The notes below the pieces were generated by a model. That model saw only the letters and a program-made list of their open reading frames with translations. It searched no databases and was not told where the DNA came from. The translations under genes were made by a program, and so were the position numbers. From a virus: a stretch of 23,182 nt of DNA. The stretch spans positions 1 to 23,182 of the IMG/VR virus record IMGVR_UViG_3300031669_000244; one strand, given 5' to 3'. This document shows, in pieces, positions 1,371-22,205 of the stretch (within the stretch, counting starts at the first letter, position 1; every line of letters starts with the position of its first letter).

Positions 1371-1777
1371 CCACGGACCACCGAGCCGAACTGATTCGCC
1401 TACTGCGAGAGCGTGATCTTTCGCTGGGTGGCGACGGAGTCGTCTACGATGAGTCCGCGGTCGAGGCTATCTACATAGCCCCGGGGACCTACGTCGGGTT
1501 CTGCGGCGACAACTATGCTGTTGTAATTGACCCCGAACAGAAGCACTATACGCGTGACGTCGTGCGTGCGCTGGGCGTGCGGCTGCAAATGATAAGCCCC
1601 ATACGCGCTGCAGTGCACCACAGGAATGTCGCGTCGATCATCGCTAACCGGCGCCTCGGGGCAGAATGGATCGGGGTCGATGACCAAGGCTACCATCACT
1701 ACCTGCTGACCAGAGAAGGGTTTCGCTATGGGAAAACAATCTGCTCCGCAGCCGCCGAACCTGCAGCCGATCAGTGA
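1355..1777 (+). CDS. Unrecognised 140-aa phage protein
   Basis: I do not recognise this protein. It begins at an ATG 16 bases inside the end of the endolysin gene, in another frame, and its last 50 bases overlap the start of the next gene. It is soluble-looking, with no membrane segment: an N-terminal helix (RAELIRLLRERDLSL), a mixed beta-type centre with YIAPGTYVGF and YAVVID, and a His/Tyr-rich stretch (DDQGYHHYLLTREGF). No clear Shine-Dalgarno sequence precedes the ATG, so expression probably depends on coupling to the endolysin. It is accepted as real because it fills an otherwise empty 360-base stretch on the coding strand of a compact operon. The region 3' of 1728 could instead be read-through of a gene that originally ended earlier. 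Confidence 0.6.
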   Translation: MGAEVATDHRAELIRLLRERDLSLGGDGVVYDESAVEAIYIAPGTYVGFCGDNYAVVIDPEQKHYTRDVVRALGVRLQMISPIRAAVHHRNVASIIANRRLGAEWIGVDDQGYHHYLLTREGFRYGKTICSAAAEPAADQ

Positions 1778-3239
1778 CGCGCAGGTCCAGATCGCCGCTG
1801 AAAATCAGAAGACAGCGCAACAGTATCTCGGGCTGAGCCAGCAGCAGTTCGAGTTCATGAAAACGAACGCGGCGCAGGAGATGACCTTCGCCCAGTCGCA
1901 GGCCGACCGCAGCTTCGGCCTGCAGCAGAGCGCGCTCGACACCCAGAACCAGATCGCTGCGGCGGCGACCAAGGTCAGTGACCAGCAGCAGGCGACGATG
2001 GCCGAAGCCCAGAAATGGGCGGAGCAGGACCGTGCCCGGTATCAGTCCCAGTACCAGCCGGTGCAGGACCAGATGCTCAAGTACGCGCAGGATTACGCGT
2101 CGCAGGCGCGTCAGGACACGAACGCGTCGCAGGCGCTGGCCGACACCAATTCGCAGTTCGCGCAGGCGCAGGCGAACGCGCGGCAGCATTTGCAGGGCCT
2201 CGGCGTGGATCCCTCGCAGGTCGAGAGCTCATCCATGTTGAATCAGATGGGTGTCCAGAACGCCGGCAATGCGGCGATGAACGCCAACAACGCGCGGATC
2301 CAGACCCAGATGCAGGGCCAGTCCCTGCTTGGCAACGCCGCGAACATGGGCGCCGGCCTGCCGGCATCCACCTCGGCTTACATGACCGGCGGCACCAACG
2401 CGGGTGCCGGCGCCGTGGGTGCAGCTTCGGCGGGTCAGCAGGGCCAGCTGAACGCCATGGGCCAGTCGATCAACTATGGCGGCTCGGGCCTGAGTGCCCT
2501 GACCAACTCGCTGTCGGCCTACGGCAACGCCACCGGCACGCCGATGCAGTACGCCGGCCTGAGCAACAATCTCAGCAACAGCGCCATGTCCGGGTATTCC
2601 TCGGCGGCGAACACCCAGATGAACCAGTTCAGCGCCGGCCTGCAGGCGTCAAACGCGAACAACGCCACCACCTCGGGCGAGATCAGCAACGTGATGGGCA
2701 TCGCCAGCATGGCCATGATGGCGGGCGGTGGTGCTGTGCCGATGGCCGCGGCCGGCCCGGTGCAGCCCAACAACGACATGCCGGCGATCGATCCGACGAT
2801 GCCGCAGATGGCGCTCGACATGAGCTCGGCGCCACAGGTGAGTGTGAACGACCTGCATCAGGATCCACAGGGGATCAAGAACGTCGACGCCGTGAGTTTC
2901 CGCGACATCATGAAGAGGCGTCTCGCGAACGCGGCAACCGTCAGCAACTCGATCCACGCGCCGAACTACGACACCGGCACCGGGCCGCCGACGATCTACG
3001 CGCCCGTGCAGATGCCCGGCCCCACGGACATCAATGCGGCGTCCGGCGGCATGCCGATCCCGCCCAACGGCCGGCCACAGCCGCGCACGGGTATGGCAGT
3101 CCCGATGAATCAGTCCGTCGACAAGGTTCATGCGATGCTCACGCCCGGGGAATATGTGATCCCGGCCGACGTGGTGCACAGCAAGGGGCTGGAGTTCTTC
3201 GACAATATCGTCAAAAAGTACCACCGCCCGGGAGCGTGA
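1728..3239 (+). CDS. Putative internal virion (ejection) protein, Gln-rich coiled coil
   Basis: This 503-aa protein starts at an ATG preceded by GAGAAGGG. Residues about 15-170 are extremely rich in Gln and Ala with heptad spacing, predicting long helices. Residues 180-340 are Gly, Asn, Ala and Ser rich and low in charge. The C terminus (from T472, TPGEYVIPADVV) is a short conserved-looking domain of a kind I recall at the ends of phage structural proteins. There is no enzymatic motif. It is the first and smallest of three consecutive large genes ending in a transglycosylase and a giant peptidase-like protein. By analogy with T7 gp14-gp15-gp16, it could form the outer-membrane part of the channel that is ejected with the DNA. 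That role is inferred from context and composition, not from recognisable homology. Confidence 0.65.
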   Translation: MGKQSAPQPPNLQPISDAQVQIAAENQKTAQQYLGLSQQQFEFMKTNAAQEMTFAQSQADRSFGLQQSALDTQNQIAAAATKVSDQQQATMAEAQKWAEQDRARYQSQYQPVQDQMLKYAQDYASQARQDTNASQALADTNSQFAQAQANARQHLQGLGVDPSQVESSSMLNQMGVQNAGNAAMNANNARIQTQMQGQSLLGNAANMGAGLPASTSAYMTGGTNAGAGAVGAASAGQQGQLNAMGQSINYGGSGLSALTNSLSAYGNATGTPMQYAGLSNNLSNSAMSGYSSAANTQMNQFSAGLQASNANNATTSGEISNVMGIASMAMMAGGGAVPMAAAGPVQPNNDMPAIDPTMPQMALDMSSAPQVSVNDLHQDPQGIKNVDAVSFRDIMKRRLANAATVSNSIHAPNYDTGTGPPTIYAPVQMPGPTDINAASGGMPIPPNGRPQPRTGMAVPMNQSVDKVHAMLTPGEYVIPADVVHSKGLEFFDNIVKKYHRPGA

Positions 3240-3240
3240 C

Positions 3241-5628
3241 ATGGCAGGTAACCCCGTCGCCATTGACTTCGGCAACATCAAGCAGGCTGCCGATCTAGGC
3301 GCAGAGCTCCACACTGCCATCGGCCAGCGCATCTATCAGGCGCGGCTGGCGGATCTGGACCAGCAGGCCAACTCGGGCAAGGTCACCCTGCCAGATGGTA
3401 CGACGGCCGACGCCAACAGCGCCGCCGGCCAGCAGGCGCTGACCGCCGCGCGCATCGACGCCTACAAGAAAGCCTCGTGGTGGGGCGTGGGCCATTCACA
3501 GAACCCGGATGGCGACCAGTCTCTCAACAACATGCTGCAGGGCGATCGCACGGAGCAGGGCGCGCAGCAGGGCTCGCGCGGTGCATTGAATGTCGCCAAC
3601 GCGCCGCAGGTTGCCGATCCCATGGTCGGCAATGGCGCGACCAAGGCTGACCCGAACGCGGTCGCCGCCGGCTACCGGCAGCAGGCGATCGGCGGCGCGC
3701 TCGCCGGCCAGTTCCAGCAGTCGAACGCCAACAATGAAATGGCTTCGACCGTCCAGAACACGGCAGCCTCGCAGCCAATTCAGGTGAACAGCCCGCAGTT
3801 CCAGAACATGGACGCCGGCCAGCGCATGCAGGACCAGCAGACGGGTGTCATGGGCGCGACGGCGAGTGCCGGCGCCCAGTACGGCGACGCCCAGCGCGTG
3901 AGCTCGGGCACGCAGGCTTACCTGAACTCCACCTCGGGCCTGCTCGCCACGACTGCCGGCAAGATGTCCCAGCAGATCGGCTCGGGCGACATGGTCGGCG
4001 CGACCGGCTCGCTGAACGCGATGGCCAGCCTGAATCCCGGGCTGCTGCCGCAGGGCGCTGATCCACATATCCCATTCCAGTACGACCCCGCGAACCACGC
4101 GTTCGTGGTGCGTGCCCCGAACAACCAACCCGTGCTGGGACCGGATGGGAAAGCCCAGATGCTGCCAGTCGACGCCGTTGCCCAGAGCGCGCCGTTCCTC
4201 GCCCAGAGCCCTGACAAGATCCCCGGGATCCTGATGGGTCTGCACGGCCAGCGGATTCAGGCCATGCTGCAGGCACAGGCGAAGGGTGCGGATGCCCAGC
4301 GTCAGGTGTACTCGGCAAACCCACAGTCGGGCATGGGCTTCATGCTGCGTGCTTTCGACGAAGCCAGCGCGGGCGGCGGTGCCGGTACTGGCGGAGCGGG
4401 CGGCGGGCTGGCCAAGCAGCTCAGCTCCATGGGCATCGCGGTCACAAACAAGCAGGGCGGTGGTTCCAGCTCAATGAACGGCAGTGGCCAGTTGGTCACG
4501 CAGATTGTTTACCGGAATGGCCAGTCCGGCACGCTGGTGACCACGCCCGCGAAGGCCAACCCAGACGGAACGATGTCGCCTACCACTACCCAGTTCCTCG
4601 ACAACAACGGCAAGGTGATCTCGGGAGTCATCCCCGGCACCACCACGGCGGCGCAGTCGGCCAGCGGTAATCTGGGCAGCCTGCTCGACACGATGATGAA
4701 GTACAAGGACATCGGATCGAACAAGATCGACGGGATCACGGCTGAACAGGTTCAGGGCATCAATGGCGTGGGCAACATCAACATGGGCCTGCCCTTCGGC
4801 AGCCCGCAGACCTCGGCGCTTCCCTCGGGGCAGGGCGGAGGTCAGGCCAGCGCGCCCGGTGATCCATCGACCGGCACCATAAAGGATGTGTCCGACTCGC
4901 TGCAGTTCAGCCCGAAGAGCGCATCGCAGTATTCGCTGCTGACCAAGAACTGGGTGGGTACGCCCTACGAGATGCCGACCAGTCTGCCGGGCATCGCCCT
5001 GCACATGGAAAGTGGTGACACTGATGTCCCCACGCGCCAGTTGAAGAATGGCGTGAGCGTGACTGGCGCTGCCCAGCTGACGCCTGAGACGGCGAAGCCC
5101 TACTTCGACCAGCTGAAGGCCGCGAACCTGCTGCCCGGGCACATCACGTCGCTGACGCAGGCGCTCAACGACCCGGCCACGAACCGCGTCATCGGTGCGG
5201 CGGTGCTGCAGGACAACTATGGCGCGTTCGCCAAGCTGGGCATGACGCCCGCGAATACCGTCACGGCGACGCTCGCGGCGTACAACATGGGCAAGGCAGC
5301 CGCAGTGGCATGGGTGCATGGTCTGCCGTACCGCACGCAGGGTGGCAAGCTGTGGAAACCCAGCGGCCCGATGGATCCGAATGGGCTGCCACCGGAGACG
5401 CAGAAGTACATCCAGCAGGGCAAGAATCTGCTCGCTGCGCGCCTGAGCGGACCGGGTGCAGGGCAGGGCGCTACACCGCCAGCCCCCAGCGATCCCGCGG
5501 CCAGCACGGCAGCGAACGCAACTGCCGCTGCCACCGCTGCGCCAAACCCGAACTTGGCACTCCCCGGGATGGGCGCTACGAACTGGACCATGCCGCCGCC
5601 GGTGCAGGCTGCCACCGCCACGAATTAA
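3241..5628 (+). CDS. Internal virion protein with C-terminal lytic transglycosylase domain
   Basis: The product is 795 aa and starts 2 bases after the previous stop, with GGGAG as ribosome site. Residues 1-560 are helical to low-complexity sequence rich in Gln, Ala, Gly and Asn, including a Gly-rich linker near residue 380. Residues about 582-690 match the SLT (soluble lytic transglycosylase, GH23-like) fold: HMESGD carries the likely catalytic E590, followed by SVTGAAQLTPETA, which corresponds to the GAxGLxQ core, and AAYNMG at 679-684, which corresponds to the AYNxG motif. The C-terminal 70 residues are an Ala/Pro-rich tail. Such virion-borne enzymes cut peptidoglycan locally so that DNA can enter the cell. 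In T7 this domain is at the N terminus of gp16; here it is at the C terminus of the middle protein. The domain call is firm; the ejection role is inferred from the neighbours. Confidence 0.8.
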   Translation: MAGNPVAIDFGNIKQAADLGAELHTAIGQRIYQARLADLDQQANSGKVTLPDGTTADANSAAGQQALTAARIDAYKKASWWGVGHSQNPDGDQSLNNMLQGDRTEQGAQQGSRGALNVANAPQVADPMVGNGATKADPNAVAAGYRQQAIGGALAGQFQQSNANNEMASTVQNTAASQPIQVNSPQFQNMDAGQRMQDQQTGVMGATASAGAQYGDAQRVSSGTQAYLNSTSGLLATTAGKMSQQIGSGDMVGATGSLNAMASLNPGLLPQGADPHIPFQYDPANHAFVVRAPNNQPVLGPDGKAQMLPVDAVAQSAPFLAQSPDKIPGILMGLHGQRIQAMLQAQAKGADAQRQVYSANPQSGMGFMLRAFDEASAGGGAGTGGAGGGLAKQLSSMGIAVTNKQGGGSSSMNGSGQLVTQIVYRNGQSGTLVTTPAKANPDGTMSPTTTQFLDNNGKVISGVIPGTTTAAQSASGNLGSLLDTMMKYKDIGSNKIDGITAEQVQGINGVGNINMGLPFGSPQTSALPSGQGGGQASAPGDPSTGTIKDVSDSLQFSPKSASQYSLLTKNWVGTPYEMPTSLPGIALHMESGDTDVPTRQLKNGVSVTGAAQLTPETAKPYFDQLKAANLLPGHITSLTQALNDPATNRVIGAAVLQDNYGAFAKLGMTPANTVTATLAAYNMGKAAAVAWVHGLPYRTQGGKLWKPSGPMDPNGLPPETQKYIQQGKNLLAARLSGPGAGQGATPPAPSDPAASTAANATAAATAAPNPNLALPGMGATNWTMPPPVQAATATN

Positions 5629-5640
5629 GAAGGAATTTCC

Positions 5641-8600
5641 ATGGGCGTTCTAACCACTGCTGCTCTCGCTGGTCAGCCGGCACCCCCGGCAGCAGCGTCG
5701 GGTGGACCGTCTGCGGACGACATCATCAATGCGTCCCTCGGCGGGAACAGGCAGGCACCGGCAGCCCCTGCCGCGCAGGCGCCGGCACCGAATGGCGCTC
5801 CCGTGTGGCGTGATCCCTCGACGGGTGACTTCTTCGCTGGCGGCCAGAAGATTCTGGCGGGCGACACGGCTGGTCTGCGCAACTTGATCACCGGCATAGC
5901 GAAGAACGCGGTGCCCGACTCGCAGGCGCCATCGTCCACATGGCAGCCGATCGACCCGGGCACGCTGCCTGCTGCACTGCAGTATTACCAGCAGAACCAG
6001 AGCGCCCCCATGTGGCGCGATGCCGAGGCTGCCACCGGCAAGCTGGTGAACAAGCTGCCGGTGATCGGGCAGGACATGCTTGCCGGCGCGGCCAACGTCG
6101 AGGCGAAGCTGCACAACACATTCACGAACCCCGACACCGATGCCATGAGCGGGCAGAAGTTCGCGCAGGGTACGGCGATCCCGACGGACATCGGCAGCCA
6201 GTGGGCGGCGAAGAACCCGGCTAAGCCGTGGCATATCGCCGACGCGCTCGCGTCGAAAGCTGACCCTGAGAACCTGACGCCGCAGCAGCGCGCATCGCTT
6301 GGCCCAGACGCTTCGACGTTCTCCAAGGTGGAGAACATGGGTGCCCAGCTGGCTCCGTTCCTCGTAGGCGGCGTGCTGGCGACGGCGGCCGGCAGCCCCG
6401 AGGCGGCGCTGGGCCTGTTCGACAGCCCGCTCGCGCTGGCGATCGGTGGCACTGCCGGTACGGCGATCGGTGGCACCACGGCGGCGGCCGGCGCGGCGAT
6501 GTTCGCCGAGGGTGGCCACGATCAGGCGACCCAGATCGCGAAGGAGGGTCTGGACCAGCTGTCGGACTCCCAGCTGAATCAGCTCCCGACGGTGCAGGGC
6601 GTGCTGCAGGCGCACCCGGGGATGTCCACTGGGCAGGCGCGGCAGCTGCTGATCACCGAGGCCGGCATGTCCGGCACGAACATCGGACTGGCCATCGGTG
6701 CCCTCACCGAGGGCGTCGCGTTCAAGTTCCTGCCCAAGGTGTTCGTGGGCAAGATGGCCGACGCCGGCTTCAACATCCCCGGTGCCGCGGTCAAGGGCAT
6801 CACCGGCCGGCTGCTGCGCGGCGGTGAGGCGGCGGTGAGCAACGAGGCCCTGATGCAGGGCCAGCAGGCCGCGACCGGCATCGCCGCGAAAAACATCACT
6901 GGCGTGGGCGACACCAGCCTTAGCGCCAACATCGACAAGGATCCCGGCGACGCCGCGGCGAACCTCGCGATCGGCTTCGGCATGGGCTCGCTCAAGCCGG
7001 CCCACGGCGATATGGCGCCGGCCCAAGTCACCGACAAGGGTATGGCGGACGCACTGGCGAACCCGAAGGCCGTCGACCCGGCGCAGCAGGACGGTGACGC
7101 GGCGGCGCATGCCGCGGCGATGGCTCAGGCTGGCCTGACCACCCACCCGGATGACGTGCCCAAGCCGCTCACCCCCGAGGACATTCAGGCTGCGGCAACC
7201 AACACCCCGCCGGGTGCGCCGGCGGCTGCCGGCGCGCCGCTGGACGCCACCACCATCCAGACTGCCTCGCAGACCCCGGCACCGCAGCAGGGTCCCGGCG
7301 GTAGCCCGGTTCCCCCGGCGCCGACAACCGTCCAGTCGCTGGAAGCAGCGATCCAGATGGCGAAGCAGGAACAGGCGAAGCACGGCACCGGCAGTATCGT
7401 GCACCGGCAGTTCACGCAGGGCATCGAGCGTCTGGAGACCCAGCTGGCCCAGCTGAAGTCCCAGCCAGCGCCGGACGCCGCGACAGCACCTGCAGCACCT
7501 GCACCCGTGGTGGATCCGAACGCGCCACGCGAGCCCGGGATGGCGCCGGCGCCGATCCCTGCGGCTCCCGGTGAGATCTCTCCAGAGCAGGCGGCAGCGC
7601 AGGCCAAGACCGAAGCTGCCCGCGGCACACCGATCCCTGATCAGGCCGCGCCAGTTGCCGCGCCGGTGCCCACCCCTGAGGCTACCCCTGAGGCTACCCC
7701 TGAGGCTGCCCCGGCAGCACCGGCACCAGTCGATGCTGCGCCGAAGACCGCAGATGTCGGCGACGTCGCGAACACGGTGCCCGAGCCGAAGCAGGACATC
7801 GCCGCCCAGCTAGCCGCCGTCAAGGCTGGCGAGAAGCGGGCGGTCTGGATCCCGGCCAACCAGCGCGAAGGTGAGGGTACGCCTGCCGTGAAGGGGCTGC
7901 GCCGTATAGTCAAGCCCGAGGGAACGCTGTACACGAAGGATCCCGCGCTGGCCAAGGCAGCGAAGGATACGCCGGTCCTCGACGAAAAGTTTCTCGCCGA
8001 TGCGCTGGGCATGGCAAAATCCAAGGCGGAAGTCGCGGCGCATGCGCAGGCGACTGCTCAGGAACCCGTCGGGCTCCGCGTGAAACGTGGCGCCAATGTC
8101 ATCCACGAAGAAGCCACCACGCCCGACATGGTCGATGAGCGGCGCAAGGCGCTGCAGAAACTGCATCGCGGTGCGAAGGTCACGGTGCACTCGGCGCAGG
8201 AGATCATCGCCGAACGCTTCGCGAAGGTCGCCGCCGAGAAGGCAGCTGCTGCAGGCAAACCCGCAGAGGCGCCCGACACTGCGCCGGCCGCAGCACCTGT
8301 CGTGGAAGATACCCCTGCGTCGAAGACCGCGGCGCCGGCGGCTGCACCAGTGACCAGCGAGAAGCCGAAGCTGCCGAAGGAACTCGCCGGCGCGTCGCCG
8401 CGCTACGCGTTCGGACCCAAGCAGTTCACCCTGACGTTCGTGAACGACGCCGACAAGGCGGCGTACATCGCCGCGAATGGCAGTACCCAGTCGAAGGCGG
8501 ATGGCAAGTATCTGGCGTTCGCGAAGCAGGCGCTGGGCATGACGGACGATCAGGTCCGCGCCCATGGCGAGGCGATCCGCGCATATATCAAGCAACATGC

Positions 8601-11600
8601 CGCCGCCGCGGCACAGGGCGGCAAGATCAATATCGTCGAGAGCGCCCGGGCGCAGAAGGCCCGCGGCATGACCCCCGATGCCCACGATGGCATCCTCGAC
8701 AACGTCGACAAACTTCAGCCCACCCGCACGCCGCAGGTCGGCACCGGCAAGATGATCACCGGCAACGTGGAGATCGTGGGTGATCACCCCGGCCTGCACC
8801 AGCTCGGCGGCATGCTCAGTGGCTGGCTCGACCAGTTCAAGGCCGGCGGCCACGGCCTGCTGAACGGGCTGCGGATCATGACGTTCGACGACTACGCGCG
8901 TGAGTACGGCGTGGACCGCGCCGATCTGGACGGGAGTGGTGGTTTCGTCGGCACGCGCAGGGCGGCGGATGGATCACTGCATCAGGTGCTCGCGCTGGAT
9001 CTTCCCCGCGACGGGAGGATCGGTCAGTACCACGTCGAGGTGGCGGCGCACGAGCTCGGCCACGTCATCGACGACAACATGTTCGAGATGCTGCCTGATG
9101 AAGACAAGGCGCACATCGATGCGGCCTACCAGCGCTGGGTGGAGATGCAGGCCGGAAAGTCCGAGAAGCAGACCACCGCAGGCCGGAACACCCCGCTGCG
9201 CGCCGTGGAGACCTCGAAGATCAAGGACGGTGTGATCCCGAAGGATTACGCGCTGTCGCGCAGGGAGTGGATGGCCGACAACATCGCGCGCTGGTTCCTG
9301 ACGGATGCCAAGCCGGTCGGCGTCATGGAGAAGTTCTTCCACAGCGTGGCGCAGGCGCTGAAGTCTCTGTGGTCCTCGCTGGCGATGAAGCAGCATCTCG
9401 AACCGGATGCCACCGTGGCGAAGTATCTGGCGGACTTCACCAACAACGCGAAGACCGCGCGGATGGTGGATCTGGCCAAGAGCCAGCCGGTCCGCATGGC
9501 TGATGCCCACTCGCTGGCGGCCGAAGTGGAGCACGACGACACCGATCCGAAGTTCGTCACCGTGGCCGATGGCGTCAAGGCCGGTCTGGGCCGCGCCGTG
9601 CGCGGTTCGATGAACGCCATGAACGATGCTGCCCACCTGTTCACCGAGCCCAAGAAGGTATGGGCGCACATCCAAGGCAGCAGGAAAGCAGCGCAGGCGC
9701 GGCGGCTGTCTCTGGCGTTCCAACCCACGATGTTCTACGCCGAGAAGGCTGAAGCCCGGGGTGAAACGACGCACCCGCTGTATCGTGCGATCGGGACGCT
9801 GCTCGACCACGCGGACAGCAATACGTCCAAGCTGCTCGCGCCGATCGATGTCCTGTACCGCCGCATCGGCAACCACAGCCCCGAGGCGCGTGCGCTGCTG
9901 CAGACGGCGATGTATGAGGGAACCACGCACGGTGTGTCGCTCGACAAGCCGTGGGATCACCCATTCAACCAGCACCTGCACTCGGATGACCCGCGGCTGG
10001 ATGCCGCCGGCAAGGCGACGTGGGAGCGCGGCCGGCGGCGGTTCGAGCAGCTGAAGACGCTGGGCGTGGACAAGCTGTACACCCACCTGCGCGACTATGC
10101 GCGTGCGCTGTACGGCCACACGCTGGACGTCCACAAGCGGCTCATCGAAGAAGGTGACTTCGGCGACGAGGCGAAGCAGGATGCGCTGGCGAAGATCGAG
10201 CTGTCGCGCAAGGCGATGCTGCAGGGTGACTACTTCCCCAAGGTCCGCGACGGCCAGTTCATCGTGTCCGCGCGTACGCCCTCGGTGCTGTCGATGACCG
10301 GTGACAATGACGACCACACGTTCTCGACGAAGGAAGCAGCGGATCTGGAGCGCAGGCGGCTCAAGCAGCTGAGCCCGCACGCCGACGTGCAGGTGGCCAA
10401 GACCACCGGCGACGCCAAGACGGACGAAGACGGCAATCCTACGCCCGACAAGTTCGAGGTGCGCGTGACCATTCCGGCTGTGTGGATGCACCGGTCGGTC
10501 ACCGAGTCGCGCAACGCGCGTCCGCAGATGCTGGAAGATCTGCGCGACGCATGGCACCGCGTGGGTCTGGGCAAGGAGTTCGACAAGCAGGCGGCCGAGA
10601 AGGACATGCTCGGGCCGCTGCGCCAGAAGACCGACTGGTGGAATGACCAGAAGGAGGTCCCGTCCGGGTTCCTGACGAAGATCCGCGAGCTGCAGGAAAG
10701 CAAGAAGATCACGCCGGAAGCAGCCGAGGCGCTGCGCGACATGTACCTGCACTCGACCGTGGAAAACTCTTTCATGAAGTCGCAGATGCGCGACCGCAAC
10801 GTGCTGGGCGCGAGCAAGGACATGCTCACTGGCATGGCGCAGCGCATGACCCAGAACGCGTTCTATGTGTCCCGTCTCGAAGCGAAGTCCGAGCTCGACA
10901 AGGGCTGGGCGAAGCTGCTGAAGGCGGCGCAGTCGGATTTGAACGATGGGCACGTGCACGCGGTGACCAACGCGAACGAGTTCTACCACCTGATGCAGAC
11001 GCGCGCCGAAGCGAACCGGGACAGCGTCTGGAACAGCGTGGGTGGTGTGCTGTCAGACCTCACCACGATCCAGACGATGGGCATGTCGCCGGCCTACATC
11101 GCCATGCAGATCCCGCAGCCGTGGCTGACCACGCACCCGCTGATGGCGGGGCGCATGGGTTACGCCGCAGCCGGCAAGCACCTCGCCAGCGCCTACGATG
11201 GCGTGACGAAATACTACGCCAGCCGCGGTGCGAAGGAGTTCGTCGCTGGCCTGCGCAAGGCCGCCGGCGCCAGCAGCGTGTACGATCCGGAGCTGGAGAA
11301 CATCGACACGATGATCAAGCGCGTGGCGAAGACGCCGGAAGAAGCGACGGCGCTGCGCGAGTGGGCGTCCAGTGGCAAACTCGACTTCAACTGGAACAAC
11401 AATCTGCGCGATGCATCGAGCGGGTCGAACACACTGAACAACCTGCAGCGGATGTCGCTGTCCTTCGCTTCGCAGATCGAAGCCCTCAACCGCGTGGTGT
11501 CCGCGATCGCAGCCTACCGCGGCGGCCGGGCCGAGCTCGGAATGTCCCACGAGGAGGCGCTGCAGTACGGCGGTGACATCGCCGACATGTCGCAGGGCAA

Positions 11601-12606
11601 CTACCGGCAGACGAACAAGTCGGCGTTCCTGCGCGGGTTCAGCGGCAAGACGGTCGGCAAGTTCAAGATGTGGACGCTGACCATGTACCACCTGTTCCAC
11701 ACGCAGGTCCTGCGGGCGATCCACAACGCGAACCCGGGTGACCGCGAGCAGGCGATCAAGACGCTCGCCTACATGACGGCGCACCATGCGGCGTTCGCAG
11801 GGCTCAAGGGTCTTGGGCCGATGTATGCCACGGCGCAGCTGATGCTCTGGGGCCTGCAGCACGCCGGCGTGATGAGCGGTTCGGTGCCCAACTCGCAGAA
11901 CAACTACAAGGATCCGTCGGTGCTGATCCACGACATGTGGCGCAGCGTGGGCAAGGACTTCGTCGGCGAGCAGAACGCTGAGCGGTTTGCCCGCGACATC
12001 GAGCACGGCCCGCTGACCGAGCTGGGACTGGACATGTCCGAGAAAAGCGGCATCCCGAAGCTGATCTCGGGCGACTACGCGAACTGGAAGCACACCGACC
12101 CAACGTCGCTGAACCTGATGAAGTACGTCATGGCGCAGCTTGGACCGGTGGCCACCGGGCCGATGAACATCTTGGGCAAGATCGGCGACGGGAACATCAC
12201 CGGTGCCGTGGCGCAGGCGTCGCCGGCGCTGCTGCGGGATGCCTACAAGGCGTACGAACTCGACAGCAAGAACTCACCGTCAGGGATGAAGTCGATCTTC
12301 GCCGCCGGCGAGAACGCCACGCCATGGAGCACCGCCATGATGGCGCTGGGCCTGCCCAGCTCGCAGGTGACGGAGGCGTACGAGAAGCGCGAGCGCGTGG
12401 CCTCGACCGGTGACCAGCTGACCGCGGCGCGCACCCGGCTGCTGCAGGCGTACACGGACAACCCGGACGACGCCGAGGTGCAGAAGCGGATTGCGCGGTT
12501 CAACGATTCGGTCGACCAGCCGTTCCAGATCAGCAACGCATCGCTGCAGCGGGCACTCCACCCACGCGTCAGCCGCGGTCGCGCGGCGCTGCAGGCAGAG
12601 GAATGA
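5641..12606 (+). CDS. Giant 2321-aa polyvalent virion protein with HELGH metallopeptidase-like domain
   Basis: The ATG follows AAGGAA at good spacing. In order: a short N terminus; Gly/Ala-rich hydrophobic segments at about 234-290 and 347-367 that could insert into membranes; a Pro/Ala linker at about 500-720 with a three-copy 12-bp repeat; a domain at about 720-870 like those called large-polyvalent-protein-associated domains; a second Pro/Ala linker near 873-907; then a zinc-peptidase-like domain with H1137-E1138-x-x-H1141 and a candidate third ligand E1209 in REWMADNIARW. The last 1000 residues are mostly helical. YFPKVRDG at about 1531-1538 resembles a degenerate PLxRFG motif, seen in giant phage and mobile-element proteins, and residues 1784-2080 look like the matching C-terminal region. 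By size and position it probably corresponds functionally to T7 gp16 and may be ejected into the cell. The peptidase target, possibly host or virion proteins, is unknown. Confidence 0.75.
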   Translation: MGVLTTAALAGQPAPPAAASGGPSADDIINASLGGNRQAPAAPAAQAPAPNGAPVWRDPSTGDFFAGGQKILAGDTAGLRNLITGIAKNAVPDSQAPSSTWQPIDPGTLPAALQYYQQNQSAPMWRDAEAATGKLVNKLPVIGQDMLAGAANVEAKLHNTFTNPDTDAMSGQKFAQGTAIPTDIGSQWAAKNPAKPWHIADALASKADPENLTPQQRASLGPDASTFSKVENMGAQLAPFLVGGVLATAAGSPEAALGLFDSPLALAIGGTAGTAIGGTTAAAGAAMFAEGGHDQATQIAKEGLDQLSDSQLNQLPTVQGVLQAHPGMSTGQARQLLITEAGMSGTNIGLAIGALTEGVAFKFLPKVFVGKMADAGFNIPGAAVKGITGRLLRGGEAAVSNEALMQGQQAATGIAAKNITGVGDTSLSANIDKDPGDAAANLAIGFGMGSLKPAHGDMAPAQVTDKGMADALANPKAVDPAQQDGDAAAHAAAMAQAGLTTHPDDVPKPLTPEDIQAAATNTPPGAPAAAGAPLDATTIQTASQTPAPQQGPGGSPVPPAPTTVQSLEAAIQMAKQEQAKHGTGSIVHRQFTQGIERLETQLAQLKSQPAPDAATAPAAPAPVVDPNAPREPGMAPAPIPAAPGEISPEQAAAQAKTEAARGTPIPDQAAPVAAPVPTPEATPEATPEAAPAAPAPVDAAPKTADVGDVANTVPEPKQDIAAQLAAVKAGEKRAVWIPANQREGEGTPAVKGLRRIVKPEGTLYTKDPALAKAAKDTPVLDEKFLADALGMAKSKAEVAAHAQATAQEPVGLRVKRGANVIHEEATTPDMVDERRKALQKLHRGAKVTVHSAQEIIAERFAKVAAEKAAAAGKPAEAPDTAPAAAPVVEDTPASKTAAPAAAPVTSEKPKLPKELAGASPRYAFGPKQFTLTFVNDADKAAYIAANGSTQSKADGKYLAFAKQALGMTDDQVRAHGEAIRAYIKQHAAAAAQGGKINIVESARAQKARGMTPDAHDGILDNVDKLQPTRTPQVGTGKMITGNVEIVGDHPGLHQLGGMLSGWLDQFKAGGHGLLNGLRIMTFDDYAREYGVDRADLDGSGGFVGTRRAADGSLHQVLALDLPRDGRIGQYHVEVAAHELGHVIDDNMFEMLPDEDKAHIDAAYQRWVEMQAGKSEKQTTAGRNTPLRAVETSKIKDGVIPKDYALSRREWMADNIARWFLTDAKPVGVMEKFFHSVAQALKSLWSSLAMKQHLEPDATVAKYLADFTNNAKTARMVDLAKSQPVRMADAHSLAAEVEHDDTDPKFVTVADGVKAGLGRAVRGSMNAMNDAAHLFTEPKKVWAHIQGSRKAAQARRLSLAFQPTMFYAEKAEARGETTHPLYRAIGTLLDHADSNTSKLLAPIDVLYRRIGNHSPEARALLQTAMYEGTTHGVSLDKPWDHPFNQHLHSDDPRLDAAGKATWERGRRRFEQLKTLGVDKLYTHLRDYARALYGHTLDVHKRLIEEGDFGDEAKQDALAKIELSRKAMLQGDYFPKVRDGQFIVSARTPSVLSMTGDNDDHTFSTKEAADLERRRLKQLSPHADVQVAKTTGDAKTDEDGNPTPDKFEVRVTIPAVWMHRSVTESRNARPQMLEDLRDAWHRVGLGKEFDKQAAEKDMLGPLRQKTDWWNDQKEVPSGFLTKIRELQESKKITPEAAEALRDMYLHSTVENSFMKSQMRDRNVLGASKDMLTGMAQRMTQNAFYVSRLEAKSELDKGWAKLLKAAQSDLNDGHVHAVTNANEFYHLMQTRAEANRDSVWNSVGGVLSDLTTIQTMGMSPAYIAMQIPQPWLTTHPLMAGRMGYAAAGKHLASAYDGVTKYYASRGAKEFVAGLRKAAGASSVYDPELENIDTMIKRVAKTPEEATALREWASSGKLDFNWNNNLRDASSGSNTLNNLQRMSLSFASQIEALNRVVSAIAAYRGGRAELGMSHEEALQYGGDIADMSQGNYRQTNKSAFLRGFSGKTVGKFKMWTLTMYHLFHTQVLRAIHNANPGDREQAIKTLAYMTAHHAAFAGLKGLGPMYATAQLMLWGLQHAGVMSGSVPNSQNNYKDPSVLIHDMWRSVGKDFVGEQNAERFARDIEHGPLTELGLDMSEKSGIPKLISGDYANWKHTDPTSLNLMKYVMAQLGPVATGPMNILGKIGDGNITGAVAQASPALLRDAYKAYELDSKNSPSGMKSIFAAGENATPWSTAMMALGLPSSQVTEAYEKRERVASTGDQLTAARTRLLQAYTDNPDDAEVQKRIARFNDSVDQPFQISNASLQRALHPRVSRGRAALQAEE
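7672..7707 (+). repeat. Three perfect 12-bp tandem repeats encoding Pro-Glu-Ala-Thr
   Basis: The unit acccctgaggct occurs three times in a row at 7672-7683, 7684-7695 and 7696-7707. It encodes TPEA repeats inside the Pro/Ala-rich linker of the 2321-aa protein. The unit is a multiple of three, so copy-number change by slippage would alter linker length without shifting the frame. Confidence 0.9.
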
Positions 12607-12610
12607 AAAA

Positions 12611-12634
12611 GGGGACTGCCTCACGGCAGTCCCC
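12611..12634 (-). terminator. Intrinsic terminator between the convergent operons
   Basis: A perfect 10-bp inverted repeat (ggggactgcc / ggcagtcccc) surrounds a 4-base loop, tcac. It begins 4 bases after the stop of the giant virion gene. Read on the minus strand the hairpin is followed by TTTTT (complement of 12606-12610), so it is a good Rho-independent terminator for the leftward replication operon, whose last gene ends at 12684. On the plus strand the hairpin is followed by CACCCCTC with no T run, so it should act less efficiently for the rightward operon, although a strong GC stem may still slow the polymerase. Confidence 0.85.
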
Positions 12635-12683: not shown

Positions 12684-15617
12684 CTACTGCGTAGAGAGAC
12701 GTTGCACACCGGTATCCGGTGCTGGAAGTTTGACAGCTCCTACCTGACCGAGAACGTACGCGGTGAACTCCACGCCGCGCGACCGCATCGAATTGGGTTG
12801 GCCTGCCATGAAAGTCAGGTTGGTCAGCTTGTTGACGTGCGGCTGCAGCACGCCCTTCGTGATGGCCTCGTAAGCCGCCGTCCAGTTGAAGTTGTGCTCC
12901 TTCGCATGCTCCTTCAGTCTCGACATCGGGATCATTACACGCTCAGCCGTGAACTTGCCGTGGTGACTCGTTCCGCGGATCTCGCCGTAGAACTGCGTGC
13001 CGCCGCCGGCGTACACCATCGCGTTGCCCGTGTCGCCGCCGAAGATCGTGAGATCGCGCAGGTGCTGCATCAGGTAGTGCGCCACCAGCTGATCCGGCGC
13101 CACGCGCTGCTCCTTCGCCATGTCGGCCTGCGCGGTCCACTGCGATTCTAGCGTGTCGCGGACGACTTTCACGTCGAATGCCAGCCCGAGGATCTTGCCC
13201 AGTTCCGCGCCCAGCTCCGCTACCGCGCAGAGTGCACTGCGGAAGCGATCCGCACTGCCGGCTGCCATGCGCAGATCCCAGCCAGCGATGCGATTCTGCA
13301 CCGCAAGCCGCCACTTATCACTGGGCCGGGACATCAGCAGTTCAACAACCTTCGGGCCGATGAAGCCGTAGTTGTGGCGCAGCTGGTTCAGCGTCACCTT
13401 CGCAAGCGACAGCGCCGCGGGATCCACGCGCATCGGGCTCAGGCGCATCTCGAACACGCGCGCGGCTTCAGCGTCCGCATCGGGCCGGTACTGCAGCAGC
13501 TTGTCGTGCACGCTGTTGTTGGACGTGGCGATCAGCGGCAGGCACCAGCGGTTGGTGTTAGCCTGCAGCTTCGCATCCGAGGTCATGCGGTGGCGTTCAC
13601 GCCCTTGTGTCAGCGTATACACGAAATCCGAAAGCTGCTTGCCCTCGACGTTGGTGAACTCATCGATGATGAAGGGCAGGTTGCCGGTCGCCGCCGCCAG
13701 CCGGAAGATCGAGTTGTGCGTGTCCTTCGCATCCCGGCGCAGCGCCGTGGGGTCACCCCAGATCGAACTGGCCGCTTCGCACAGGGTTGTCTTGCCCACG
13801 CCAGATTCTGGAGAAAAGGCGTTGAGCATCACGCCGTCTACACCTGTGAAGGCTAACAATGGCGCTCCCAAGGCCAGCGCGAGCAGCGCCTGTCGCTCAC
13901 CACCACCCGAGAGGGCGACGTTGAAGCCCTGAAGCCAAGAGGCGTAATCGCCTTTCACATGGTACGGCTCGATGGCATCCACCGTGCCGGACGCGCGAAT
14001 CGATTCCGGCGCCTTGCCGGCGGCGTAGATCGTCGTGCCGAGAACGAACTCCTCATGGGAGTCCGTCCAGCCACAGCGCGACGCAATCTGCCCAGAACGG
14101 CGCAGCTTCTGCAACTGCGCGAGGAAATCAGTCATGACGATGTCCCTGAATATGTTGACGTGCTCACTGCGCATGCGGATGTTGGCCACGGCCAGCGCAC
14201 GCGCACAGGCTTTCGTGTCGGTCTGCTCAGCCGCGCCGAGCTCGACCGTGATGGGGCCATCCTCGAAACGGTCGAAGGTCACCAGCGCGTACGACCCGCG
14301 CCCCATCCGGTCAGCGAGGAGTTCAATATGCGTTATTGGGAAGCCACCGATCGGCAAGAGTTTCCAGATGGGCTTGCCGTCCGCATTCTCACCGTCCTTC
14401 TTGACGACGTGCGGAATCCCGCCACGGATCTCAAGGCTGCCCAGCTTCCCGTCGGTGACGCTCACCCGGCTCTCGCCCGGGGTGACGATCAGGGCGCCGT
14501 GCTTGACCGCCCCGGACGTGCTCAGAGGGACGGGGACGGGCACAGGAGCCACTGGCTGGGCGACGGCTGCCGTGGGCCTGCCCAGCTGCACTGGTGAGGC
14601 CACACGGCCCGCATGGGGGCAGGTATGACACTGCGCCATCCCGAGCTGCTTGAACTTGGCACATGTCGCCGGCTGGTATCCCTGATCAAGCGTCTGCGTC
14701 CACTTCCGGCCGAACTCCTCCATCTCGAACGCGTGATGGCCGCTGCTCAGTGCCAGCGCAACCCGTTCCTTGCCGATGGGCGTCTCGCTGGAAGCTGCGA
14801 CAACGTCCAGCGCGGCTTTCCACAGCGGCTCAGGTACGCCCGCGCCGTGGGTGCCCAGCATGGTGTTGAACCCCGGGCAGTCCATCAGCACGCCGCGCAG
14901 GCTGTAGGGCGGATGCTCCGTGCCTGCCAGCAGCGCATTGTTGTCGCTCAGGCCGGGGGCACGCGTCATGGACGGTTGGTGCGCCGCGTCAGGATACGGC
15001 GCTAGGGCGCGCGCCAGCACGACCGGGCTGCTCGGCACGCCTTGGACCAGCACGCGCACCGGTGCCGTGGTTCCGTGCTTGTGATTCAGCGTGCCGGGCA
15101 GGCGCAGGATCCGCGCCGCGTCCTGCGTGACCGTGGTATCCAGATGCACGCCCACCTTCGCGAACGCGCCGGCCAGCCGGGACGACAGGCGCAGCCACTG
15201 CGTGATCGGCAGGTCGGCATCGAACGGCCAGTAGACGTGAACCCCATAGCCAGAGTTGACGATGGTCGGCCGCGGCAGGCCGATGGTGTCGTTGCCTGCC
15301 AGCAGCGCCGTGAGGCCGTCGCGCTGGGTGGCGTAGCTCTTGCCCGCGCCGCAGTCGACGTCGACGCGCAGGCAGCGGTGTAGCTTGGCCAGATGGGCAC
15401 GGCGGTAGACCACGCCGTCAGTGTCTTCCGAGTAGGCAGCGACGCCGAAGTAGACGTCCGCCGAACGGCCCATGCCCCACTGGGTCAGGCTGAGCAGTTC
15501 ATCATTGTTGCCGGCCGGGACGGACTTCTGCCATACCTTGCCGTCGGGAAAAACGAATGTGGTGAACCAGTGCCCAGTGCTGGGCAGTACATGTGCGAGA
15601 AATGTTGAAGGTTCCAT
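12684..15617 (-). CDS. Primase-helicase: archaeo-eukaryotic-type primase fused to DUF927 helicase
   Basis: This 977-aa protein probably synthesises primers and unwinds DNA at the phage fork. Residues 1-200 fit the AEP/PrimPol fold: a metal-binding D86-x-D88 (RVDVDCG), then SGYGVHVYW with H127, then DAARILRLPGTLNHK around 166-180, a signature of phage AEP primases. A cysteine cluster C319-x10-C330-x2-CP-H follows, as in many plasmid and phage primases. The C-terminal half is DUF927-like with Walker A SPESGVGKTT (K609) and Walker B FIIDEF (D652, E653), then a TSNN stretch that would fit a sensor. The ATG has AGGGG upstream. It is the last gene of the leftward operon, separated from its upstream neighbour by 63 bases that contain a hairpin. 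Domain assignments are by motif; hexamer formation is assumed from the family. Confidence 0.85.
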   Translation of the reverse strand: MEPSTFLAHVLPSTGHWFTTFVFPDGKVWQKSVPAGNNDELLSLTQWGMGRSADVYFGVAAYSEDTDGVVYRRAHLAKLHRCLRVDVDCGAGKSYATQRDGLTALLAGNDTIGLPRPTIVNSGYGVHVYWPFDADLPITQWLRLSSRLAGAFAKVGVHLDTTVTQDAARILRLPGTLNHKHGTTAPVRVLVQGVPSSPVVLARALAPYPDAAHQPSMTRAPGLSDNNALLAGTEHPPYSLRGVLMDCPGFNTMLGTHGAGVPEPLWKAALDVVAASSETPIGKERVALALSSGHHAFEMEEFGRKWTQTLDQGYQPATCAKFKQLGMAQCHTCPHAGRVASPVQLGRPTAAVAQPVAPVPVPVPLSTSGAVKHGALIVTPGESRVSVTDGKLGSLEIRGGIPHVVKKDGENADGKPIWKLLPIGGFPITHIELLADRMGRGSYALVTFDRFEDGPITVELGAAEQTDTKACARALAVANIRMRSEHVNIFRDIVMTDFLAQLQKLRRSGQIASRCGWTDSHEEFVLGTTIYAAGKAPESIRASGTVDAIEPYHVKGDYASWLQGFNVALSGGGERQALLALALGAPLLAFTGVDGVMLNAFSPESGVGKTTLCEAASSIWGDPTALRRDAKDTHNSIFRLAAATGNLPFIIDEFTNVEGKQLSDFVYTLTQGRERHRMTSDAKLQANTNRWCLPLIATSNNSVHDKLLQYRPDADAEAARVFEMRLSPMRVDPAALSLAKVTLNQLRHNYGFIGPKVVELLMSRPSDKWRLAVQNRIAGWDLRMAAGSADRFRSALCAVAELGAELGKILGLAFDVKVVRDTLESQWTAQADMAKEQRVAPDQLVAHYLMQHLRDLTIFGGDTGNAMVYAGGGTQFYGEIRGTSHHGKFTAERVMIPMSRLKEHAKEHNFNWTAAYEAITKGVLQPHVNKLTNLTFMAGQPNSMRSRGVEFTAYVLGQVGAVKLPAPDTGVQRLSTQ

Positions 15618-15642
15618 AAGCCCCTGTCCGCCAAGAAGCAGA

Positions 15643-15667
15643 GGGGTCTGGTGCGAATCCAGACCCC
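15643..15667 (-). terminator. Intercistronic hairpin before the primase-helicase gene
   Basis: A perfect 9-bp inverted repeat (ggggtctgg / ccagacccc) with a 7-base loop fills the only sizeable gap in the leftward operon. On the minus strand it is followed by TCTGCTTCTT, a poor U tract, and the primase start codon comes about 25 bases later. It could be a partial terminator that lowers primase-helicase expression relative to the upstream genes, or an RNA processing/stability hairpin. Confidence 0.55.
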
Positions 15668-15680
15668 ACCATCGGGTTGC

Positions 15681-16739
15681 TTACTGGCCGAGCAGGCTGT
15701 CGACCTCGCTGAGCAGGACGGACGATGCGGCGGGCGCCGGCGGTGGCGTGCTCGGCACACTCACCGGGCCAGCGTACTGCGGCGGCAGCGGCGGCAGTGA
15801 GGCGTGCGTCGTGGGAGCCTGCTGCAGCGGTGCCTGCTGGACGGGCGCCGGCGGCGGCGCCTGCTGCAACGGAGCCTGCTGCAACGGAGCCTGCTGCAAC
15901 GGAGCCTGCTGCAACGGAGCCTGCTGGACGGGTGCCGGCGGTGGCGCCTGCTGCAGCACGGTCTGCTGCAGCACGGGCTCAGGCGCCGGCGCCGGCGCCG
16001 AGGCGGCAGGCGGCGTGGCAGCCGTCGCGCCCAGCACGTTCTTCACCTGCGCACCTTCGCGGGCATCTTTCACCACCGCGGCTTCGGCATCGGTCAGCGC
16101 CCGCGCCACTTGGAACAGCAGCTTCGGGAACGCCTCGGTCGAGTCGAACAGCATGCGGATCACCACCCCGTAGTACGGGATGCCCATGTCATTCAGCGAC
16201 CGCGCGAAGTCAGCCAGCGAACCCAGCGACGCCGGCGGTACGCGCAGCAGCATCGGGCCGCCATACAGCTCATTCTTCAGGTCCGACGCCGGGACGATCG
16301 CCAGCTTGCGCACGTCCTGACACGCCTTGCCCTTGCCGCCGTTGTCCGACACGCGCGAACCGAACGCGTTCATCGGGCAGATGCCGCAGGCCAGCGAGAT
16401 CGGCGCTGCCACGTTCGGGTGCACACCGTCTTCGCTACTGCAGTCCGGCTGCTGGTCAGAACCCTCAACGTAGGCCGTACGATAGAACGTCTTGCTGAAG
16501 TGCGCGTTGGCGCTCAGCAGTACCACGTCCATGTAGGGCGCGGCGTACTTCATGCCCTGCACCTCGACCACCAGCGGCGTCTCGTTGCCGCCGTGCTTGA
16601 TCTTGAAGCACTTGCCCTTGATGGACACGACGGCGTAGCCGCCGGAAAGGCCCTCGGTGAGGGACGTGTTGGCCGCGACCTGCCCAGCGAAAAGGTTGGA
16701 CAGCGCGAAGCCCTGCGGTAGTGCGATCTGTTGGCTCAT
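15681..16739 (-). CDS. Cys-rich replication protein, candidate ssDNA-binding protein, with QQAPL repeat tail
   Basis: From the ATG at 16737-16739 (preceded by GAGGG) the product is 352 aa; an upstream in-frame ATG would run through the neighbouring gene and is rejected. Residues 1-235 form a conserved-looking domain with four cysteines placed as C100-x17-C118-x2-C121-x18-C140, the middle pair in ACGICPMNAFGS, then KGKACQDVRKLAI. I recall this C..CP.n..GS...GKAC pattern from phage proteins encoded beside replication genes, where an ssDNA-binding role is suspected. Residues about 240-340 are a Pro/Ala/Gln tail with QQAPL repeats, and the C terminus is short and acidic-hydrophobic (LLSEVDSLLGQ), like the partner-binding tips of SSBs. 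Function is inferred; a zinc site is likely but not proven. Confidence 0.6.
   Translation of the reverse strand: MSQQIALPQGFALSNLFAGQVAANTSLTEGLSGGYAVVSIKGKCFKIKHGGNETPLVVEVQGMKYAAPYMDVVLLSANAHFSKTFYRTAYVEGSDQQPDCSSEDGVHPNVAAPISLACGICPMNAFGSRVSDNGGKGKACQDVRKLAIVPASDLKNELYGGPMLLRVPPASLGSLADFARSLNDMGIPYYGVVIRMLFDSTEAFPKLLFQVARALTDAEAAVVKDAREGAQVKNVLGATAATPPAASAPAPAPEPVLQQTVLQQAPPPAPVQQAPLQQAPLQQAPLQQAPLQQAPPPAPVQQAPLQQAPTTHASLPPLPPQYAGPVSVPSTPPPAPAASSVLLSEVDSLLGQ
15861..15920 (-). repeat. Four perfect 15-bp tandem repeats encoding QQAPL
   Basis: The plus-strand unit ctgctgcaacggagc is repeated four times without a mismatch at 15861-15875, 15876-15890, 15891-15905 and 15906-15920. On the coding (minus) strand it encodes the pentapeptide QQAPL. 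The block is flanked by two nearly identical 35-bp copies, 15834-15868 and 15921-15955, that differ at a few bases, so the whole segment appears to have grown by duplication. Perfect identity at the DNA level implies recent expansion. Confidence 0.92.
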
Positions 16740-16746
16740 GACACCC

Positions 16747-17136
16747 TCACTTGCGGAAATTGACGGAAACGAGCGCCGAACGGTCGACACCGGGCGGCAG
16801 GCAATTTGTCTCATCGACGTACGCCTCGACGACCGTCTTGGCAACGCGACGCTCGAACATGTCGAGCCGGTTGTGCTGCTGCGCCCACTCGGTGAACACT
16901 ACAGGGTCGGTCAGCTTGAACGACGTGAGGGTGTTAATGTACATCGTCCCCTCGTCGGTGCGAATCGATTTCTCGCCTCGCGCCTGCATCTGCTGCAGTG
17001 CAATGGCTTCCAGCTGCTCCATCGCCTTGTTAAAAAGAACGAGCTCACCTGCGTGGCGTTCTTTGATTTCTTTCACTTTATCGCGCAGCTTGCGATACCG
17101 GTCGATGAGATCGACCGAGCTGATTTCGTCTGCCAT
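16747..17136 (-). CDS. Gp157-like coiled-coil replication/recombination accessory protein
   Basis: This 129-aa protein has one of the strongest ribosome sites in the operon, AGGAGGA, six bases before the ATG. The N-terminal 55 residues are a highly charged coiled coil (DRYRKLRDKVKEIKERH). The C-terminal half contains SIRTDEGTMY, an ERRVAKTVVEAY segment and LPPGVDRS, a pattern I recall from a widespread phage family resembling siphovirus Gp157, usually found beside ssDNA-binding and recombination genes. It lies 7 bases upstream of the candidate ssDNA-binding gene and 9 bases after the SNF2 helicase gene, so the three are probably made together. The biochemical role is not established; loading or bridging of ssDNA-binding protein is a guess from context. 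Confidence 0.6.
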   Translation of the reverse strand: MADEISSVDLIDRYRKLRDKVKEIKERHAGELVLFNKAMEQLEAIALQQMQARGEKSIRTDEGTMYINTLTSFKLTDPVVFTEWAQQHNRLDMFERRVAKTVVEAYVDETNCLPPGVDRSALVSVNFRK

Positions 17137-17145
17137 GGTGTCCTC

Positions 17146-18687: not shown

Positions 18688-19031
18688 TGGGTGGCCGACG
18701 CCAGCTTAACCCATGTGAGAAATCCTTGGAGCTCTGCTTCCGTGGTCACCGAGAACACCACGATGCCGGCGCGCTGCATTGCCGCCGTCGTTACCTGCTG
18801 GCGCTTGGTCAGCTTGGCCGGTTCATCGAAGCGTTTCACCTCCACGGCAAACGGGATGCCGGTTATGCGGTGCGCAGTTCGAATCGATCCGATGTAGTCG
18901 AGCGACGCCGCACCGAACGCCCCACCGCTAGCGCCCTGCAACCACAGGTGCACCCCGAGATCCGCGCACAGCGCCCGCAACGCATTGCGGAACCTCGTCT
19001 TGGCTTTACCCTCAGGCGTGTTGCTGCTCAT
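18684..19031 (-). CDS. VRR-NUC domain endonuclease
   Basis: This 115-aa protein is a stand-alone VRR-NUC (PD-(D/E)XK superfamily) nuclease. Visible motifs are an early charged helix, GASGGAFGAASLDYIG with D45, the core E64-V-K66 in FAVEVKRF, and the following LTKRQQ with Gln78/79, then an AGIVVF strand. Phage VRR-NUC proteins of about this length are reported to dimerise and cleave branched DNA such as Holliday junctions, so one role could be resolving recombination or packaging intermediates. GAGG lies 7 bases before the ATG. Both ends overlap neighbours by ATGA: the Cas4-like nuclease upstream and the SNF2 helicase downstream. Confidence 0.82.
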   Translation of the reverse strand: MSSNTPEGKAKTRFRNALRALCADLGVHLWLQGASGGAFGAASLDYIGSIRTAHRITGIPFAVEVKRFDEPAKLTKRQQVTTAAMQRAGIVVFSVTTEAELQGFLTWVKLASATQ

Positions 19032-19705
19032 CTCACCGCCTCATCATTCGTGTTGTGTGGGCAGCTGCCGACGGGGCAGTACCCACAGAGTCCGTTGGGT
19101 GTCATGGGGAACTCGTTGTTCGCCTCGGCCATCACCATCTTGGTGACCGTGGGCAGGAACTTGTTCCACAGCGCCTGTGCTTCTTCGACCTTGATCACGC
19201 GCCGGTGCGGCTTGTCGTGGTAAATGTAGAACAGCGACCCGCGCACCTCGGTGATGAAAGGCATCTCGTGGAAGATCATCAGCGCCGCCAGCTCCAGCTG
19301 GTCATCCGCCGGCCGGAACTTCCCGGTTTTCCAATCGATGTAGATCGCGATCGTCCCGATCACCAGAATGAAGTCCGACTTCCCGCGCAGCCAGCCGTTG
19401 TCCCAGTCCCTGAAATCGCACGGCTTGAAATTCGCGTCGATACACATCGGCTTCTCGATCAGGCGCAGACCCTTCTGCGCCATCAGCTTGTCCAGCACCG
19501 GCTTGATCCGGTCCAGCTTCGCCGGCAGCGGCGTACCGGACTTCAGGTATGCCTCGATCTGCTTGTGCTCGTCGTCGCCCATGGTGTTGAACTTGTTCGC
19601 GTCGCTGTGCGACTTGGCGATGCGAACGTGGTAATACTTCTTCGGGCAGTTGTCGAACATGCTCAGCGAGGAGTACGACCACGAAAACTTCTTTGCCTTG
19701 GCCAT
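19028..19705 (-). CDS. Cas4/RecB-like PD-(D/E)XK exonuclease with four conserved-type cysteines
   Basis: From the ATG at 19703-19705 (AGGA upstream) the product is 225 aa; an earlier in-frame ATG would read into the polymerase gene and is not used. Residues 9-24 hold S..SLSMFDNCPKKYY, the entry motif of RecB/Cas4-type nucleases. The catalytic core is GKSDF with D111, IDWKTGK with D124 and K126, and Q136. C20 together with C207-x2-C210-x4-C215 near the C terminus is the arrangement that binds a 4Fe-4S cluster in Cas4 and AddB, so this enzyme may carry one. Cas4-type enzymes degrade DNA ends. Here it sits 7 bases after the polymerase gene and overlaps the VRR-NUC gene, with no CRISPR components in view, so a recombination or host-DNA degradation role is more likely. 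Confidence 0.82.
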   Translation of the reverse strand: MAKAKKFSWSYSSLSMFDNCPKKYYHVRIAKSHSDANKFNTMGDDEHKQIEAYLKSGTPLPAKLDRIKPVLDKLMAQKGLRLIEKPMCIDANFKPCDFRDWDNGWLRGKSDFILVIGTIAIYIDWKTGKFRPADDQLELAALMIFHEMPFITEVRGSLFYIYHDKPHRRVIKVEEAQALWNKFLPTVTKMVMAEANNEFPMTPNGLCGYCPVGSCPHNTNDEAVR

Positions 19706-19712
19706 GGGAATC

Positions 19713-22194: not shown

Positions 22195-22205
22195 GCCTGC
22201 GGTCC

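Follow-up and report, generated by a model that had tools for sequence, protein, structure and literature searches.

A zincin-type domain at a recurrent position before the PLxRFG module of a giant, probably ejected, phage protein

Zincin domains in giant ejected phage proteins have been described previously (PMC5512222, PMC12633501). In polyvalent phage proteins, it was already proposed in 2017 that they probably process the proteins themselves and possibly act on host targets (Iyer et al. 2017, PMC5512222), and they were predicted to cut giant injected proteins into working parts. The same paper gives the zincin core of polyvalent proteins as an N-terminal helix, three strands and two C-terminal helices, mentions an HExxxH variant of the motif, and cites the processed DdrB protein of phage P1, a precedent for processing. 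In the literature on giant injected zincin proteins that we examined, no such cleavage was shown for the class, and a review of ejection proteins that describes the gp14-gp15-gp16 cassette does not mention peptidases (PMC8954989). In the N4 vRNAP, an HExxH subdomain (C1) is followed by a helical C2 of ~110 kDa, and C1 and C2 together form a C-terminal domain with an inhibitory effect on the polymerase (N4 vRNAP structure paper). This protein goes into the virion without being processed, and the full-length recombinant form, once purified, showed no degradation (PMC5512222; N4 vRNAP structure paper).

We analysed a virus record of 23,182 bases, the whole of which is referred to here as the window, and which has no near relatives among named phages. 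Its gene setting is as follows.

738 to 1370, + strand: endolysin (phage lysozyme), a neighbouring gene (PF00959, E 4.3e-26).
1728 to 3239, + strand: 503-aa virion structural protein (phrog_8003, E 2.7e-31; tblastn).
3241 to 5628, + strand: 795-aa protein with an SLT transglycosylase domain, in a gp15-like slot (PF01464, 25.6 bits, cut-off 21.3).
5641 to 12606, + strand: giant 2321-aa PLxRFG-type polyvalent protein, probably an ejection protein (open frame, ribosome-binding site, hairpin, NF032893, tblastn).
12611 to 12634, no strand assigned: terminator-like hairpin, 5 bases past the giant-gene stop, between the convergent gene blocks (RNA fold -25.2 kcal/mol, z -4.5).
12684 to 22521, - strand: convergent replication block (DUF927 primase/helicase-like protein, SNF2 helicase, PD-(D/E)XK nuclease, DNA polymerase A).

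The frame of the giant gene is open over 2321 codons from its ATG (ORF analysis), and AAGAAGGA lies directly 5' of it, with a ribosome-binding site (aagaagga) at 5627-5634. Relatives of the 503-aa structural protein were found by tblastn in Bcep22-type podophages with DarB-like/PLxRFG proteins, and the 795-aa SLT protein had no match in named phages at E 1e-3 (tblastn). In Rhizobium phage RHph_TM29, matches to the structural protein at 1728 and to several of the replication genes occur in the same order. The overall layout is also much as in TM29: the genes for the virion protein, the SLT protein and the giant protein, followed by replication genes of convergent orientation. The Schitoviridae vRNAP gene also faces convergent replication genes in the records examined. 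Since the order of virion protein, hydrolase protein and giant protein fits the gp14-gp15-gp16 cassette (PMC8954989), we infer from gene order and homology that the protein is present in virions. It is probably an ejection protein, carried in the capsid of a short-tailed phage and entering the host with the DNA; this context makes the first-pass annotation of a virion protein probable. The replication block also encodes dATP/dGTP diphosphohydrolase-type and HNH proteins. The SLT domain occupies its own gene here (3241-5628), whereas it lies at the giant's own N-terminus in the PLxRFG giants of phages Skulduggery and ZX1.

Within the giant gene we distinguished the following features.

6337 to 6393, + strand: sole clearly hydrophobic stretch of the N-terminal region, residues 233-251 (hydropathy 1.37 over 19 residues).
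7201 to 7800, + strand: Pro/Ala-rich linker, residues ~521-720 (composition).
8221 to 8400, + strand: Pro/Ala-rich linker, residues ~861-920 (composition).
8380 to 8619, + strand: small domain common to two phages, residues 914-993 (tblastn).
8746 to 9435, + strand: zincin (gluzincin-type) peptidase-like domain, residues 1036-1265 (homologues, M78 matches in relatives, AF2/Foldseek, hhalign).
9049 to 9063, + strand: HELGH, residues 1137-1141, with predicted zinc ligands H1137 and H1141 and general base E1138 (invariant in alignment A7).
9265 to 9267, + strand: E1209, predicted third zinc ligand in REWMADN (invariant in A7; E-phi-phi-A in survey zincins).
10231 to 10254, + strand: YFPKVRDG, a degenerate YFPLxRFG motif, residues 1531-1538 (aligned with YFP..R.G of eight other phages).
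10624 to 12576, + strand: PLxRFG ('tail-700') helical C-terminal module, residues 1662-2312 (NF032893, phrog_30335, predicted helical).

The motifs, linkers and helical part of the 2321-aa protein had been described correctly from its letters in the first-pass annotation; both Pro/Ala-rich stretches lie N-terminal of the HELGH/peptidase region (composition). Pfam, PHROG and NCBIfam profiles gave no family match and no RNA polymerase domain in residues 1-1035, and Pfam and NCBIfam profiles pointed to no further enzyme in the N-terminal half. Residues 233-251 may contact a membrane, judging from hydropathy. Residues 914-993, which no Pfam model covers, match the gp16-slot internal virion protein of Sphaerotilus phage vB_SnaP-R1 (T7-like, Krylovirinae; 43.8% identity, E 7e-8) and Macromonas phage BK-30P (38.2% identity, E 3e-5) in tblastn searches. 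The occurrence of this domain in a Krylovirinae gp16-slot protein suggests another link of the giant protein to ejection proteins.

The assignment of the C-terminal part to the PLxRFG type was borne out by NCBIfam NF032893 ('tail-700 PLxRFG domain-containing protein'), which scored 182 bits against residues 1662-2312 (cut-off 100, E 1.9e-53). The same region is present in giants annotated DarB-like or PLxRFG (tblastn), and the final ~920 residues are predicted to be helical almost throughout. Foldseek of the module against the PDB gave nothing significant. YFPKVRDG aligns with the YFPLxRFG of other phages, and the label 'degenerate PLxRFG' is therefore correct. With the 914-993 domain, the zincin and the PLxRFG module, the protein combines domains of unrelated kinds in a single late gene product, as phage polyvalent proteins do.

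HExxH occurs somewhere in 7% of shuffled copies of the giant protein, so that the motif alone is weak and homologues are required to judge it. A chance motif in an unrelated domain would also agree with the Pfam result for the giant protein's own domain, which reached no peptidase threshold, including that of PF06114 (M78, IrrE/ImmA-like). However, conservation of HExGH and of an E-W/Y-x-A-D helix extends to four other giant phage proteins. Vibrio phage VS-ABTNL-3 (HEMGH, FEEYFADN) was matched by residues 1040-1260 at E 7e-4 in tblastn, and L006 (HELGH, HEWMADN), L007 (HELGH, EEYLADN) and L017 (HELGH, EEYVADQ) came from scans of genome and viral contigs. HELGH is invariant in alignment A7, as are the third-ligand Glu and the A-D after it, and the A7 profile recovers the VS-ABTNL-3 domain, which lies outside A7, at E 1.8e-18. 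In the giant protein, E1209 falls within SRREWMADNIAR (context SRREWMADN). HELGH is significant because it is conserved and stands at a fixed position in homologues.

When viral contigs were scanned with a single protein, no relatives came up; alignment scans did find some. Genomes of one bacterial class added only 2 weak matches in 369, and the zincin clade therefore looks phage-borne. L007 and L017 belong to this clade, yet their C-terminal parts are not detectably PLxRFG, which suggests that the zincin has moved between carrier modules.

The first-pass annotation had looked to peptidase profiles, structure prediction and conservation to judge its zinc-peptidase signature. Conservation of HExxH among homologues is good. 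The profile search succeeded for the relative L007, which passes the Pfam gathering score for Peptidase_M78 (PF06114; 23.4 against 22 bits), and fell below threshold for the giant protein. Structure prediction placed the ligand helices in zincin order, in an AlphaFold2 model from four sequences that was of moderate confidence (mean pLDDT 66, pTM 0.63). Its elements (H15-33, E42-46, E69-72, E78-82, H94-115, H172-185) form an N-terminal helix, three strands, a helix bearing HELGH (94-115) and a second helix bearing E1209 (172-185), which is the core order given for polyvalent-protein zincins in PMC5512222. HELGH and E1209, both invariant in A7, thus lie in two separate helices of the model.

Foldseek of the model against the PDB gave weak matches (best E 0.14), of which the first nine were lethal factor and M1 aminopeptidases, all gluzincins. 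Against viral models there were four matches below E 0.001, including 3e-7 and 2e-6, and the latter was named a large polyvalent protein. Sequence searches of solved structures with the zincin domain and its profile found nothing meaningful. By hhalign, the zincin clade of the giant protein matched the zincins of N4-type vRNAPs and phiKMV gp37 with a probability of 94% and other PLxRFG zincins with 84%, in both cases over the HExxH region; the comparison of the plxw and plx alignments was not counted as evidence, since these have sequences in common. Conservation and position in homologues led us to reject a chance motif, which these structural and profile matches and the E-phi-phi-A motif likewise make very improbable. 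The zincin-type domain with the ligands named in the first-pass annotation is supported, and from sequence comparison its position appears to be common to many related virus proteins.

Like the zincin MPTase proteins of Iyer et al., the giant is a large multi-domain, apparently late phage protein with an HExxH domain core, a second Glu helix and adjoining domains of unknown function; unlike them, it has no recognised enzyme on its cargo side and its zincin lies below Pfam peptidase thresholds. It resembles the N4 vRNAP as the probable largest ejection protein, with an HExxH domain followed by ~1000 helical residues, but lacks an RNA polymerase domain. Homology of the PLxRFG module to the N4-type C2 was rejected, as hhalign gave no support (1%). 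In the vRNAP of Vibrio phage PG11 (L005:2304-12653), two HExxH motifs stand in succession, one at residue 2187 and one at residue 2424, and a possible third-ligand helix comes after each. In phiKMV, gp36 has a lysozyme domain and gp37, in the gp16 slot, carries HEAVH...KELVAWGL; gp37 differs in its length of 1337 aa and was absent from the tblastn matches of the giant protein. The contrast drawn earlier, between a transglycosylase in T7-type ejection proteins and a peptidase here, did not hold, as the transglycosylase sits in the gene just upstream, gp37 of this T7 relative has the motif too, and giant ejected proteins with zincins were already known (PMC5512222, PMC12633501).

The N4 vRNAP shares its order with the giant protein (N-terminal domain, low-complexity linker, enzyme, C1, ~1100-residue helical C2), is packaged whole, and has no cleavage reported in its paper. 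The zincin domain could accordingly be read as a structural or regulatory bead and not a working peptidase, possibly like C1, and the absence or change of the motif in some PLxRFG giants points the same way. However, although the surrounding sequence is poorly conserved, E1138 and the two His persist in clades that have diverged strongly, which suggests selection on an active site. We regard the structural role as possible but rather doubtful.

Several named phages share both the zincin and the PLxRFG module. The DarB-like giants of Bcep22-type podophages (Klebsiella ZX1, Pseudomonas Skulduggery, Erwinia Pavtok) have the C-terminal module with YFPLxRFG and a zincin about 360-670 residues upstream of the motif; here, in contrast, the motif is degenerate, the SLT is a separate gene, and there is neither a helicase-methylase nor an LPD39 match. 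The adenine methylase and SWI2/SNF2 helicase of a DarB-like antirestriction protein were not found in the giant (Pfam); helicase and methylase matches are present in Skulduggery and ZX1. PVS_24 of Vibrio phage VS-ABTNL-3 (1790 aa) shares the zincin clade and PLxRFG module but has a shorter N-terminal part. EVB31_083 of Rhizobium phage RHph_TM29 (2328 aa) shares gene order, related replication genes and the module, but has its own InPase domain and a different zincin (HEATH...EEFVAEAF).

To survey this arrangement, we scanned with five PLxRFG modules and took the best 80 of 369 matches as loci. The PLxRFG motif was found in a long frame at 79 of these 80 loci, and removal of near-copies left 63 distinct giants. 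HExxH lay 340-700 residues upstream of YFPLxRFG in 43 of the 63, where 0.7 were expected from shuffles, and in 48 when HExxxH was counted too. The distance was mostly 360-470 residues, and is 394 in the 2321-aa protein. E-phi-phi-A, the third-ligand motif, followed in 29 of the 48 survey zincins (6 expected). As the survey is one search branch and covers the best 80 of 369 matches, its percentages describe that branch.

Most members of the rhizobial clade with YFPLGRFG, to which Sinorhizobium phage PBC5 belongs, lack HExxH, and other giants have HExxxH; HExxH is therefore not essential to the PLxRFG module. That clade comprises L033-L050, L053, L054 and L059, most of them without an upstream HExxH. 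The motif YFPLGRFG occurs with HExxH kept in L057, L060 and L064, and HExxxH replaces HExxH near the zincin position in L026, L028, L087, L090, L094 and L013.

Upstream of the zincin, the cargo differs: SLT with helicase-methylase in Skulduggery and ZX1, InPase in TM29 and douglas 12A4, and none recognised in the 2321-aa protein or VS-ABTNL-3. The lack of another recognised enzyme in the giant's N-terminal half would suit a peptidase that is itself the cargo and cuts host defence, envelope or regulatory proteins after entry, and host targeting is among the possibilities in PMC5512222. However, the domain adjoins the PLxRFG module whatever the upstream cargo, and a role tied to the carrier therefore fits better than one directed at host targets. 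Nothing was found that favours cleavage of host defence or envelope proteins over self-processing, and we consider the peptidase unlikely to be cargo.

As a whole, the data are best explained by a polyvalent ejection protein of a phage, belonging to the PLxRFG class and built like the N4 vRNAP (probability about 0.5). We infer its packaging, zinc binding, catalysis and substrate as follows. The protein would be a late product, stored in the capsid, that leaves through the tail along with the DNA once the smaller ejection proteins have gone. Its gluzincin-type zincin, flanked by a flexible N-terminal half on one side and by the helical PLxRFG module on the other, would hold zinc through H1137, H1141 and E1209 and use E1138 as base. 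Cleavage at a linker, on packaging or after entry, would then separate the N-terminal part from the PLxRFG module.

The likeliest job of the zincin, at roughly even odds, is thus cleavage at a linker, with the giant protein itself or its ejection partners as substrate. Self-processing is favoured because the domain stays by the carrier while the cargo changes, because active-site residues are kept while the rest diverges, and because the N-terminal parts are set apart by linkers and processing is known for P1 DdrB. Against it count the sub-threshold Pfam scores of the giant protein's domain, the moderate confidence of the model, and PLxRFG giants in which HExxH is missing or HExxxH. Because the N4 vRNAP enters the virion uncut, some of the probability stays with host targets and with a structural role.

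The giant protein adds a member to the known class of polyvalent phage proteins with a zincin (PMC5512222). What is new here is that the zincin has a fixed place ahead of the PLxRFG module, that the motif is degenerate and that the SLT stands in a gene of its own. By tying the zincin to this place across many podophages, the survey provides a testable target and a yardstick for which PLxRFG giants keep, alter or lose it. More tentatively, the zincin may be a dedicated release peptidase of PLxRFG-type ejection proteins, freeing the upstream cargo from a common carrier module. If so, carrier and cargo would be separable after threading through the tail in most such phages, and the giant protein described here would be a machine with reduced cargo and its transglycosylase in a separate gene.
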